Shown one piece after another: positions 51,907 through 58,327 of a stretch of 64,000 nucleotides of DNA (its first letter is position 1; each line of letters starts with the position of its first letter). Under the pieces are notes generated by a model that was given only the letters and a program-made list of their open reading frames with translations, did not search any database and was not told the DNA's origin. Source of the stretch: Sphingopyxis solisilvae. Lineage in GTDB: Bacteria; Pseudomonadota; Alphaproteobacteria; Sphingomonadales; Sphingomonadaceae. The DNA lies in assembly GCF_015475875.1 (NCBI RefSeq), contig NZ_JADKYM010000010.1, positions 62,001 through 126,000 of the forward strand, read 5' to 3'. A program made the position numbers and the translations under genes.

Positions 51907-51980
51907 CCGTTCGTGTCGAGCGAAGTCGAGACACGTCGTAGCCGGGCCGGACACATCTCGGCTTCGCTCGATGGAAACGG
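51907..51980. repeat. palindromic repeat, family A (copy 3)
   Basis: CCGTTCGTGTCGAGCGAAGT at the left, a degenerate right end (CTTCGCTCGATGGAAACGG). Between the ABC ATPase stop and the nadB start. Confidence 0.75.
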
Positions 51981-51997
51981 GCTTAGGGTTTGACGAT

Positions 51998-53584
51998 ATG
52001 ACCGACACCACCCCCCACGACGTCATCATCGTCGGCTCGGGTGCCGCGGGCCTCACTGCCGCGATCGCGCTCGCCGACCATTGCAAGGTGCTCGTGCTCG
52101 CCAAGGGCGACCTGACCGGCGGATCGACCGCCTGGGCGCAGGGCGGGATCGCCGCGGTGCTCGACGCGGGCGATACGTTCGAAAATCATATCGACGACAC
52201 GATGGTCGCGGGCGCCGGACTCAACCGGCGCGAGACGGTCGAGTTCGTCGTCGAAAATGCGCCCGCCTCGATCGAGCGCCTCGTCGAAATGGGCGTCCCG
52301 TTCAACAAGGATGCCGAGGCGCTGCACCTGACGCGCGAGGGCGGCCATTCGCACCGCCGCATCGTCCATGTCGACGACGCGACGGGCTGGGCGGTGCAGG
52401 CGGCGCTGCTCAAGACAGCCGCGGCGCATCCGAACATCACCCTGCTGCCGGGGCAGGCGTGCGTTGACCTGATCACCGGACGGCACGAGGAACGCTATTC
52501 GGGATCGGGCCGCGTGTGGGGCGTCTATGCGCTCGACGAAAAAACCGGAGAGGTTCACGCGCATGTCGGCCGCGCGACGATCCTCGCCAGCGGCGGCGCC
52601 GGGCGCGTCTATCAATTCTCGACCGCCCCTAGAGGCGCGACCGGCGACGGCATCGCGATGGCCTGGCGCGCCGGCTGCCGCGTGTCGAACATGGAAATGA
52701 TGCAGTTCCACCCCACCTGCCTGTTCAACCTCGACGTCAAGAATTTCCTGATCACCGAGGCGGTGCGCGGCGAGGGCGGCATTTTGAAGCATCCCGAAAC
52801 CGGCCACCGCTACATGCCCGACTATGACCCGCGCGCCGAACTCGCGCCGCGCGATGTCGTGGCGCGCGCCAACGACGACCAGATCAAGCGCTTCGGGCTC
52901 GACTATGTCCACCTCGACATCAGCCACCTCGACCCCGATTTTGTCGCGAGGCATTTCCCGAACATCTATGAAAAGCTGCTGACGCTCGGCATCGACATGA
53001 CCCGGCAGCCGATCCCCGTGGTCCCTGCGCAGCATTATACCTGCGGCGGCATCTTGATCGACCTTGCTGGGCGCACCGACCTGCCGGGGCTGTATGCCGC
53101 GGGCGAATGCACCGAAAGCGGGCTGCACGGCGCCAACCGCCTCGCGTCGAACAGCCTGCTCGAATGTTTCGTGTTCGGCGAGGCCGCGGCGAAGGACATC
53201 ATCGCGCGCTGGGACCAGCTCGAACCGCCCCCCGCGATCCGCCCATGGGACGAAAGCCGGGTCACCGACTCCGACGAAGAGGTGATCATCAAGCAGAACT
53301 GGACCGAGATCCGCCGCTTCATGTGGAATTATGTCGGCATCGTCCGCACGACCAAACGGCTGGAGCGCGCCCAGCACCGCATCCGCCTGCTGACCGACGA
53401 GGTCGAGGATTATTACGGCCACTTCCGCGTCACCACCGACCTGATCGAGCTGCGCAACCTGCTGCAATGCGCCGATCTGATCGTGCGCAGCGCGCTCCAT
53501 CGCAAGGAAAGCCGCGGGCTGCATTATACGCTCGATTATCCGGAGATGCTGGCGGAGGCGGTGGATACGGTGCTGGTGCCGTGA
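51998..53584 (+). CDS. nadB: L-aspartate oxidase
   Basis: 528 aa FAD enzyme making iminoaspartate in de novo NAD synthesis. FAD motif GSGAAGLTAAIA at the N-terminus; active-site region HPTCLFN, EAVRGEGG and ANRLASNSLLE. C-terminal helical domain. nadA and nadC are not adjacent. The ATG at 51998 (MTDTTPHDV) has AGGG upstream; an in-frame ATG at 51971 lies within the repeat. Confidence 0.95.
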   Translation: MTDTTPHDVIIVGSGAAGLTAAIALADHCKVLVLAKGDLTGGSTAWAQGGIAAVLDAGDTFENHIDDTMVAGAGLNRRETVEFVVENAPASIERLVEMGVPFNKDAEALHLTREGGHSHRRIVHVDDATGWAVQAALLKTAAAHPNITLLPGQACVDLITGRHEERYSGSGRVWGVYALDEKTGEVHAHVGRATILASGGAGRVYQFSTAPRGATGDGIAMAWRAGCRVSNMEMMQFHPTCLFNLDVKNFLITEAVRGEGGILKHPETGHRYMPDYDPRAELAPRDVVARANDDQIKRFGLDYVHLDISHLDPDFVARHFPNIYEKLLTLGIDMTRQPIPVVPAQHYTCGGILIDLAGRTDLPGLYAAGECTESGLHGANRLASNSLLECFVFGEAAAKDIIARWDQLEPPPAIRPWDESRVTDSDEEVIIKQNWTEIRRFMWNYVGIVRTTKRLERAQHRIRLLTDEVEDYYGHFRVTTDLIELRNLLQCADLIVRSALHRKESRGLHYTLDYPEMLAEAVDTVLVP

Positions 53585-53602
53585 GGATGGCGTAAAAGAA
53601 AC

Positions 53603-54071
53603 CTCACGCAAAGGCGCGAAGGCGCAAAGAAGGGGATGCGTCGGGGTGGGTATCGAAGAAATCGCCAGCGTCACCGTCGATTGCGGATTTCATCTACACA
53701 AGAATTTGGGACCGGGCCTGCTCGAGTCGGTTTATGAAGCCATCATGGCCGATCAGTTGGTGCGGCGCGGGCTGAATGTGCAGCGGCAGGTGCCGATTCC
53801 CATTCGTTATGATGGGATTGAGTTGCCGGAGGGATTTCGAGCGGACTTGCTGATTGAGGGCGTGCTGTTGGTCGAACTGAAATCTGTGGAGCGGTTGTCA
53901 CCGCTCCATGGCAAGCAAGTCCTGACATACCTTCGCCTGCTAGATATGCCATTGGGGTTGCTGATCAACTTTGGCGGCGAAACCTTTAAGGAAGGCGTCA
54001 AACGCATCGTCAACAACCATCAAAGCTGACTTTGCGCCTTCTTTCTTTGCGCCTTCGCGCCTTTGCGTGAG
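53603..54071. mobile_element. inverted-repeat unit carrying the GxxExxY gene
   Basis: The gene is enclosed by a perfect 27-bp inverted repeat (left arm 53603-53629, right arm 54045-54071), both carrying the pattern CTCACGCAAAGG...GCGCAAAG and its complement. No transposase is present. A gene-less palindrome with related ends is at 58256-58327. Confidence 0.6.
53646..54029 (+). CDS. GxxExxY protein (predicted PD-(D/E)xK nuclease-like)
   Basis: 127 aa. It carries the family motif G-L-L-E-S-V-Y (GxxExxY) near residue 25, and the nuclease-like signature FRADLLIEGVLLVELKSV, where D and E-x-K match a PD-(D/E)xK core. No enzymatic function is established for the family. GTG at 53646 is used; AGGGG lies 10 nt upstream. 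It is the only gene inside the inverted repeat unit and is transcribed outward past the right arm toward a convergent neighbour. Confidence 0.88.
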   Translation: MGIEEIASVTVDCGFHLHKNLGPGLLESVYEAIMADQLVRRGLNVQRQVPIPIRYDGIELPEGFRADLLIEGVLLVELKSVERLSPLHGKQVLTYLRLLDMPLGLLINFGGETFKEGVKRIVNNHQS

Positions 54072-54082
54072 ATAATTTTTTC

Positions 54083-54328
54083 TTACCCACCAACCCCCAA
54101 CAACCGCCCGGCCAAAATCAGCACAATCGCCCCGATCACCGACGCCAGGCACCCCGCACGGTGAAAGTCGCCGCGGCCGCGCGACGTTGCGAGGCCCGCC
54201 AGCAGTGAGCCGCCGATGCCGAGCAGGATCGTCGCGATCCACCCCATCTGCACCGCGCCCGGATAAAAGAACCGCGCCAGCGCGCCGATGATCAGGCCCG
54301 AGATGATTGCGCCGATGATATTGATCAT
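54083..54328 (-). CDS. GlsB/YeaQ/YmgE family membrane protein
   Basis: 81 aa with three hydrophobic stretches and the glycine-rich pattern SGLIIGALARFFYPGAVQMGWIATILLGIGGSLLAG. Family members are stress-associated small inner-membrane proteins. AAGGG precedes the ATG at 54328, which overlaps the amidohydrolase stop (ATGA). Confidence 0.88.
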   Translation of the reverse strand: MINIIGAIISGLIIGALARFFYPGAVQMGWIATILLGIGGSLLAGLATSRGRGDFHRAGCLASVIGAIVLILAGRLLGVGG

Positions 54329-55545
54329 GCGTTGAACCCTTCGTTCAAAAACCGCTCGGCCAGTGCCGCATGCAGCGCCGCGCCGCGTGCCATCACTTTT
54401 TCGTCCAGCACCATGCGGTTCGAGTGCAGCCCGCAGCAGGCGCGCCAGTCGCTGCCCTCCGCGCTCGCGCCCAGCCAGAACATCGCGCCGGGCACTTTTT
54501 CGAGCACATAAGAGAAATCCTCGGCGCCCATCACCGGATGATCCATCGTCAGCCACGCCGCCTCGCCGAACGTCGCCTCGACGACCGACTGGCCGAACGC
54601 GACCGCGCGGCTGTCGCAGATGGTGACCGGAAAGCCCTCGTCGATCTGCACCTCGGCGGTGCAGCCATGCGCCTCCGCGATTGCGGGGGCGAGGCGTTTC
54701 AGCTCGCGCGCCACCATCGCGCGCCGTTCGGGCGACAGCGTGCGGATCGTGCCGAGCAGCTCGGCGGTTTCGGGGATGATATTGTTCGTCGTCCCGGCGC
54801 TGATCTTGGCGATGGTCACGACGGCGGGATCGAACACCGACACGCGCCGCGTCACCATCGTCTGGATCGCGGTGACGATGGCGCAGGCAACCGGGATCGG
54901 GTCGACCGCATCGTGCGGCATCGACGCATGGCCGCCCGCGCCCTTGACGGTGATCGACAGGACATCGGATGAAGCGAGCAGCGGTCCGGCGCGCGATGCG
55001 AAAATCCCGTGCGGCGCATTGGGCATGATGTGGAGCGCGAACGCCGCGTCGGGCAGCGGGTCGATGATCCCGTCGTCCAACATGAAGCGCGCGCCATGAT
55101 GGCCTTCCTCGCCCGGCTGGAACATGAACATCACCGTGCCGGGCAGCCGGTCGCGCGCCGCGCACAGCAGCTTCGCCGCGCCAACCAGCATCGCGACATG
55201 CGTGTCATGCCCGCACGCATGCATCGCGCCGGTGGTTTCGGAGCTGAAGTCGAGCCCCGTATCCTCGACCAGCGGCAACGCATCCATGTCGCCGCGCAGC
55301 AGGACGGTGCGCGCGTTGCCCCCATTCCCCGCCAAGCCCCCGCGCAGGATCGCGACCAGCCCCGTCGTCGACGGCCCCTCGCGAAATTCCAGCGGCAGCC
55401 CGGCGAGCGCCTGTTTGATCTTCGCAAGCGTCTTGGGGTTTTGCAGCCCGAGTTCAGGCTCGCGGTGGATCGCGCGGCGCAGGTCGACCAGGTCGTCGAG
55501 CAGCGTTTCGGCCTCGGCGGGCCAGCTATGTGTTTGGGTGTCCAT
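54325..55545 (-). CDS. M20 family amidohydrolase (hippurate-hydrolase/aminoacylase-like)
   Basis: 406 aa metal-dependent amidohydrolase. It carries the blocks IHREPELG, RGDMDALP, HACGHDTHVAML and QPGEEGHHGARFML, which hold the metal-binding residues, and MGAEDFSYV near the end. Cytoplasmic, with no signal. Members act on N-acyl amino acids or on indole-type conjugates. It overlaps the GlsB-like gene. Different subfamily from the secreted M20 peptidase at 5323. Confidence 0.92.
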   Translation of the reverse strand: MDTQTHSWPAEAETLLDDLVDLRRAIHREPELGLQNPKTLAKIKQALAGLPLEFREGPSTTGLVAILRGGLAGNGGNARTVLLRGDMDALPLVEDTGLDFSSETTGAMHACGHDTHVAMLVGAAKLLCAARDRLPGTVMFMFQPGEEGHHGARFMLDDGIIDPLPDAAFALHIMPNAPHGIFASRAGPLLASSDVLSITVKGAGGHASMPHDAVDPIPVACAIVTAIQTMVTRRVSVFDPAVVTIAKISAGTTNNIIPETAELLGTIRTLSPERRAMVARELKRLAPAIAEAHGCTAEVQIDEGFPVTICDSRAVAFGQSVVEATFGEAAWLTMDHPVMGAEDFSYVLEKVPGAMFWLGASAEGSDWRACCGLHSNRMVLDEKVMARGAALHAALAERFLNEGFNA

Positions 55546-58255: not shown

Positions 58256-58327
58256 TCTCACACAAAGACACAAAGATGGCGGCTCCCTCGCGCGAGCAAA
58301 CCGCCATCTTTGTGTCTTTGTGTGAGA
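58256..58327. repeat. gene-less palindromic element related to the GxxExxY unit
   Basis: Arms of at least 26 bp pair perfectly (left 58257-58282, right 58301-58326) around an 18-bp centre. The outer pattern CTCACACAAAGACACAAAG resembles the end of the GxxExxY unit (CTCACGCAAAGGCGCGAAG). It could be a miniature derivative of that unit. Confidence 0.6.

Follow-up and report, generated by a model that had tools for sequence, protein, structure and literature searches.

A GxxExxY nuclease-like gene boxed by inverted arms, and its gene-less arm pairs, as a candidate transposase-free kind of mobile DNA

We analysed a GxxExxY gene that lies between inverted repeats, here called arms, in a 64,000-nt stretch of Sphingopyxis DNA (the window), and compared it with its relatives in other genomes. 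Together, the boxed nuclease gene and its repeats resemble an undescribed class of mobile DNA that has no transposase. The explanation that we favour, and consider somewhat probable, is a two-part system, in which an arm-boxed GxxExxY nuclease cassette would be accompanied by gene-less arm pairs on which the nuclease acts in trans. We read it as a nuclease-repeat partnership that has the layout of REPIN-RAYT and is built on a PD-(D/E)xK nuclease. If this is true, a widespread protein family would gain a function and a substrate, a repeat class common in many bacterial genomes would be explained, and the system would represent a second, unrelated route to the REPIN-RAYT way of life, with a nuclease in place of a transposase. 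A literature search, mostly without subscription papers, returned no description of the nuclease-repeat system and mentioned the GxxExxY family only in passing; searching for the arm sequences gave nothing apart from unrelated papers.

Results

The left arm (CTCACGCAAAGGCGCGAAGGCGCAAAGAA; 53603-53631, + strand) contains three tandem 8-nt CRCNNAG units and forms a perfect inverted repeat with the right arm (54043-54071, - strand), which is the same sequence in the opposite orientation. An earlier note on this DNA described a perfect 27-bp inverted repeat around a nuclease-like gene with nothing else between the arms, and the description holds with small adjustments. The match is slightly longer, being perfect over 29 bp, and an extended match of 38 nt is 89% identical. 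The 23-nt arm core has exactly 2 copies in the window with 3 mismatches allowed, against 0/100 dinucleotide shuffles. The enclosed gene (53646-54029, + strand) has a GTG start, encodes 127 amino acids and is the only GxxExxY gene in the window's genome. Beyond it, all that was seen between the window arms is an incomplete additional arm unit on the inner side of the right arm (54030-54041, - strand), which is a 12-nt repeat of families D1 and I8. On the left, the conserved flank contains an ORF (51971-53584, + strand) that we take to be nadB, encoding L-aspartate oxidase, and that was used as a synteny marker. On the right, a small membrane-protein gene, presumably GlsB/YeaQ-like (54083-54328, - strand; ends taken from the sequence), is convergent with the left neighbour, and the ORF at 54325-55545 (- strand), which we take to be an amidohydrolase-like gene, served as the marker for the flank tree.

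The window protein is a member of the GxxExxY family, as the earlier note had proposed. It scores 129.1 bits against TIGR04256 (cut-off 35; E 9.8e-38) and 127.8 bits against PF13366 (PDDEXK_3; cut-off 22; E 3.3e-37), both far above the cut-offs. PDDEXK_3 is the only Pfam match between the arms, and no transposase was found there. An AlphaFold run without an alignment gave a pLDDT of 35; repeated with an 80-row alignment, it gave 95.5. In these 80 rows, D67, E77 and K79, the predicted catalytic residues, are invariant and Q91 and Y95 are nearly so. They make up a conserved D, an ExK and a Q-x3-Y pair. E27 is also invariant in the 80 rows, but the scan pattern required it; in 22 unselected rows it is conserved in at least 90%. 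The closest solved fold is SSO0001, which we take to be Cas4 (Foldseek E 0.017, probability 0.99-1.00; VIA Z 9.3), and other nucleases of the PD-(D/E)xK superfamily, among them LHK-Exo, lambda exonuclease and MGME1, are also among the best fold matches, with modest E-values. No Foldseek match is as good as E 0.001, and a Z of 8 was reached by three chains only. A sequence search for solved relatives returned none at E up to 1, and PADLOC gave a single weak match (E 0.0027). Judged from the model and the alignment, the protein has a PD-(D/E)xK fold with the catalytic residues kept and is a predicted nuclease. Pairwise comparison of coding sequences indicates that the gene is under purifying selection, with a dN/dS of at most 0.16 in 14/15 pairs; the remaining pair, at 0.35, consists of nearly identical sequences.

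Flanking inverted arms are found at 62/62 Sphingopyxis loci, with scores above the best of 565 shuffles (12); the marginal locus among them, L051, scores 13 and fails against a second shuffle set, whose best is also 13. These loci take in 63 of the 65 GxxExxY matches, two fragments being omitted. Elsewhere in the phylum, 37/51 loci have flanking inverted arms and 14/51 show no clear repeat. A wide scan of 84,980 species, with one genome per species and a single peptide pattern, gave at least 575 relatives, of which the best 80 were kept. By record title, 23 of these 80 are sphingomonads, and the others come from Verrucomicrobia, Planctomycetes, Cyanobacteria, Bacteroidetes, Chloroflexi, Acidobacteria, Geobacter and other groups. 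Inverted arms scoring above all 240 shuffles are present in 70 of the best 80; among them is L246, where the repeat consists simply of purines. Of the 57 loci outside the sphingomonads, 47 have such arms, and all ten loci with no clear repeat are in this group.

The arms are about 25-30 bp long. In Sphingopyxis they read TCAC or TCGC and run on as tandem CRCNNAG units, and most of them are no more than about 60 nt away from the gene region that was matched. In the wide-scan set, tandem pairs of CRCNNAG units with a spacing of 8-9 nt face the gene on at least one side in 73/80 loci and on both sides in 54/80. We observed 259 gene-facing unit pairs vs 0.47 expected from shuffles, with 3 in 146 distal windows; outward-facing pairs number 56 in the 80 loci. 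The boxed GxxExxY gene is thus, by sequence comparison, a family spread over many phyla and not a one-off locus. In a record of Sphingomonas parapaucimobilis (L362, 2992-3420), fabD and fabG of the fatty-acid operon stand on either side of the GxxExxY gene; the record is labelled plasmid, yet it has ribosomal-protein genes.

At the window locus, species with flanks about 90-92% identical have the cassette forward, a cassette of the other arm type inverted, or no cassette, and the breakpoints in the flank alignments fall directly at the arms or close to them; each species in the set is represented by a single genome. In the sister species G021, a flank identity of 90-92.5% extends to 20 bp short of the left arm and, on the other side, reaches into the right arm, while the gene is 72% identical, inverted and bounded by the other arm type. 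Two relatives, G048 and G034, are empty at this locus. Their flank alignments stop at 53580 and restart at 54084 in G048 and at 54090 in G034 (gap to 54089), and the interval missing from G048 (53581-54083) includes AT-rich edges outside the arms. The place is empty in 11/29 relatives, where nadB runs directly into the convergent gene. The earlier note had suggested searching relatives for the arms with and without the gene and for empty sites, and the search found both gene-less pairs and the empty alleles of G048 and G034.

In the window neighbourhood, 16 species have a cassette of the CACGC or CACAC type, some of them in the next intergenic place. The tree of these 16 cassettes needs a single change of arm type (support 100/98), whereas 6 are needed (bootstrap range 5-7) when the tree is that of the neighbouring, presumably amidohydrolase-like gene; the well-supported branches of this flank tree by themselves force 2. 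Placing the CACAC set in a single clade is rejected on the flank tree (log-likelihood 128 lower, p-AU 7e-65). Among the ten species with a cassette at the window place, the cassette tree implies 3 changes of orientation and the flank tree 4. The conflicting cassette and flank trees therefore support exchange of the unit between the arms. Comparison of these sequences supports the view that the cassette is exchanged, inverted, and present or absent as an arm-bounded unit while the flanks stay.

The Sphingopyxis gene is mostly found at a few recurring home sites. No match was found in 50,697 phage records (0/50,697), no relative was found in viral contigs, and 8 of 72,556 plasmid records matched. 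The best plasmid-record match has ribosomal-protein and fab genes aboard and looks chromosomal. Given the few home sites and these phage and plasmid counts, the gene is not an aggressive mover. The earlier note had seen in the locus the layout of a transposase-free unit that is mobile or processes itself. In favour of this are the forward, inverted and absent states, the flank homology that runs to or near the arms, and the conflicting trees; the unit is, however, no isolated case, and in Sphingopyxis the gene keeps mostly to its home sites and dispersal is mainly that of gene-less arm pairs. A scheme in which cassettes hop among many sites was revised: S3 and S6 proved to be the same place, occupied by cassettes of opposite orientation. 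Sites S7 and S11 are one small gene away from S3/S6, and four inverted cases were aligned.

The window's genome contains 14 sites within 3 mismatches of the 20-nt arm core and 45 sites of arm type by a degenerate pattern, both gene arms included, against 0 for the reversed control. Several sites are gene-less inverted pairs 100-220 bp apart, and among gene-less pairs one arm type is often nested within another. The 20 gene-less elements that we fetched have full arms and short filler that often holds small hairpins; by eye, filler hairpins are shared between elements with different arms. As grounds for doubt, the earlier note had named arms that always occur at one place and arms with unrelated genes between them; the arms occur at many sites, and the gene-less copies that were read hold short filler and no unrelated genes. 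A second element in the window (58256-58327) is gene-less, with 27-bp perfect inverted arms (TCTCACACAAAGACACAAAGATGGCGG) of the CACAC type and an 18-nt loop; it is located 4.2 kb from the cassette and is flanked by two unrelated genes. One arm type encloses another common palindrome in gene-less elements. The CACRAAG-type arms of L281-L284 surround a separate palindrome with (T)TCGACAAGCTC(A/G)GGG.

At three sites of gene-less elements, the relatives compared either lack the element, show other repeats there, or carry one with a different arm type. Relatives without the arm element can have another repeat, CATGCCGGACTTGATCCGGCATCC ... GGATCAAGTCCGGGGTGA, in its intergenic place (L167, L169, L170 and L178). 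We also looked for target-site duplications, as the earlier note had proposed, and found no convincing case at 23 elements whose ends are approximate: with 4 offsets, there are no flanking direct repeats of at least 4 bases, and repeats of 2-3 bases are few (at most 4 vs 1.8 expected; 1 vs 0.09).

Outside Sphingopyxis, arm-like sites are present in 24/24 gene-bearing genomes, with 740 sites in total, gene arms included, vs 12 in the control. Here 16/24 genomes have at least 10 arm sites and 8/24 have fewer than 10; in one genome, all 13 sites lie in a single cluster. These counts cover gene-bearing genomes alone, and the comparison with genomes that lack the gene was made within Sphingopyxis.

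Among 80 Sphingopyxis genomes, the number of arm sites follows the gene. After subtraction of the genome's own gene arms (two sites per gene), the median is 32.5 in the 40 genomes with the gene vs 2 in the 40 without it (p 4.8e-10), and the rank correlation between arm-site number and gene number is 0.74. At least 10 arm sites are found in 34/40 genomes with the gene vs 10/40 without it, and 6/40 genomes with the gene have fewer than 10. The left and right arms of one locus are alike, while arm types differ between loci. On the tree of 61 Sphingopyxis proteins (60 rows typed), the arm type changes 8 times, where the least possible number is 6; shuffled arm types give a mean of 36.3 changes, and 0/200 shuffles are as low as observed. 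The comparison supports co-divergence of arms and protein.

The arm type of the gene also matches that of the dispersed copies. We compared the dispersed copies of each type between genomes with that arm beside their own gene and gene-bearing genomes of other types. The copies number 14 vs 1 for GGAG (13 vs 27 genomes, p 3e-6) and 15 vs 1 for CACRAAG (10 vs 30 genomes, p 1e-4). For AGAG they number 12 vs 1 (9 vs 31 genomes, p 0.005). Two of the nine AGAG genomes, G005 and G053, qualify solely by an AGAG remnant next to their GGAG gene; G009, which has a gene fragment, was placed in the other-type set. Counter to the match, AGAG sites number 38, 22 and 19 in three genomes that have a gene of another type, and some of those copies are nested with GGAG elements. 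The host-tree control, made on a flank-gene tree of 35 genomes, leaves 3-5 well-supported independent pairs per type, none significant alone; on all branches there are 8, 8 and 5. In the parts of the output that were viewed, the independent pairs run in the expected direction and almost none are opposed. The strength of the type match is reduced because shared ancestry leaves few independent pairs. The results support, at the level of genome comparison, gene presence and arm type as predictors of the dispersed copies. The second part of the system would thus be the gene-less inverted arm pairs that share a genome with the gene and among which its own arm type is over-represented.

Discussion

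We propose that the GxxExxY protein acts in trans on arms of its own type, which it may recognise either as a multimer spread over the tandem units or in the form of a hairpin or cruciform made by paired arms, and that it cuts or trims DNA there. Repair of arm with arm would then copy, flip or swap the enclosed content. Such a process would keep left and right arms alike and let arm pairs spread, and it would allow one cassette to replace another or to re-enter arm-bearing sites; the model needs no transposase or integrase. Recognition and catalysis at the arms are what we infer for the protein, whereas association, type match and exchange are comparative results. The wider claim, on which we are evenly divided, is that this is a transposase-free class of mobile DNA found in many phyla, in which a Cas4/RecB-like PD-(D/E)xK nuclease would break or trim DNA at tandem-octamer arms and so drive the copying, flipping and swapping of its own cassette and of co-evolving gene-less arm pairs. 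The existence of several natural arm types makes specificity directly testable.

Host recombination could produce some of these patterns alone, if the arms are ordinary dispersed repeats that RecA-type or annealing recombination swaps and flips, and the nuclease is a passenger with another function. Arms of about 25-30 bp are abundant, and inverted repeats allow both inversion and arm-bounded exchange. However, this leaves unexplained why one gene family has one arm unit design across phyla, and it gives no account of dispersed copies that are predicted by gene presence and arm type; we regard it as unlikely, although deserving of some weight. A function kept by the host is distinctly unlikely in our view. 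Here the nuclease would trim or remove palindrome hairpins, and gene and repeats would persist together because the repeats are costly without the nuclease. The co-occurrence of gene and arms, the purifying selection and a fold like that of end-processing nucleases would fit such a role, which by itself does not explain cassette exchange. In addition, arms seem to be tolerated without the gene, because a quarter of the gene-free genomes (10/40) hold at least 10 arm sites. It is very improbable that the arms are unconnected with mobility and serve only as regulatory or terminator hairpins of the gene or as structures at the transcript level. The short distance between arms and gene region fits such hairpins, and six gene-less elements fold as RNA at -80 to -127 kcal/mol; against them stand the many gene-less copies, the type match in trans, the arm-bounded exchange and the lack of any match to Rfam families in 20 sources.

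The arms could also be ends that a RAYT or another transposase moves in trans, with the GxxExxY gene as cargo or as an accessory factor. The layout and the dispersed doublets resemble REPIN-RAYT, and Y1 genes occur in 15/80 Sphingopyxis genomes, including the window's. Across all 80 genomes, those with Y1 are richer in arms (median 27 vs 9, one-sided p 0.006). Among gene-bearing genomes, however, there is no clear difference (median 50 in the 10 with Y1 vs 33 in the 30 without, p 0.46). Y1 is absent from 30/40 gene-bearing genomes, several of which are among the richest in arms, and GxxExxY-type arms are absent from all 10 Y1 loci fetched (of 17 matches). We consider movement by a transposase in trans to be rather improbable, and a Y1/RAYT mover was set aside as not required, most gene-bearing genomes among the 80 being free of Y1. 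A Y1_Tnp match with an E of 3.2e-7, over the cut-off, lies at G000:C2:56563-56832, on the same contig as the window and some 5 kb to its left.

Compared with known systems, the two-part nuclease-repeat system is closest in layout to REPIN-RAYT. In the parts of the two source papers that bear on this, REPIN-RAYT is described as a gene between two inverted repeats with dispersed gene-less doublets, repeat flavours that go with the gene, and a gene tree that largely follows the species (PMC2817692, PMC3116915). To the extent covered by these parts, the GxxExxY gene is similar, since it lies between inverted repeats that recur genome-wide as inverted doublets. Unlike RAYT, the GxxExxY protein is predicted to have a PD-(D/E)xK fold and not that of a Y1/HUH transposase, and its arms are made of tandem 8-9-nt units and not of GTRG-headed self-palindromes. 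The cassette system is not a REPIN-RAYT member, because it lacks both the Y1 transposase and the REP head. MITEs and DDE insertion sequences likewise combine short terminal-inverted-repeat elements without a gene and a gene-bearing relative; here, however, the single gene between the arms encodes PDDEXK_3 and not a transposase, and the 23 elements, with their approximate ends, gave no convincing target-site duplication.

The cassette shares with homing endonuclease elements a free-standing small nuclease-like gene and the occurrence of empty and occupied alleles, and there are weak fold matches to the PD-(D/E)xK homing endonucleases I-Ssp6803I (E 0.46) and I-Bth0305I (E 0.94). It differs in that no intron or intein was seen and in that the bounding arms are also found in many gene-less copies. 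Nucleases of the Cas4/RecB type are among the best fold matches, with modest E-values, and share the conserved D, ExK and Q-x3-Y. The GxxExxY protein, however, is of a length class of about 125 residues, with no helicase part, and by eye no cas genes were recognised among the ORFs listed around the gene. A Cas4-type iron-sulphur site, which takes four cysteines, is not expected, because the window protein has a single cysteine. Ten further sites (L352-L361) are head-to-head, or inside-out, joints of two arms with a spacer of 10-14 nt that is mostly AT-rich; these joints resemble a joined-ends product, and, judged by eye, two of these places are each found in two species.
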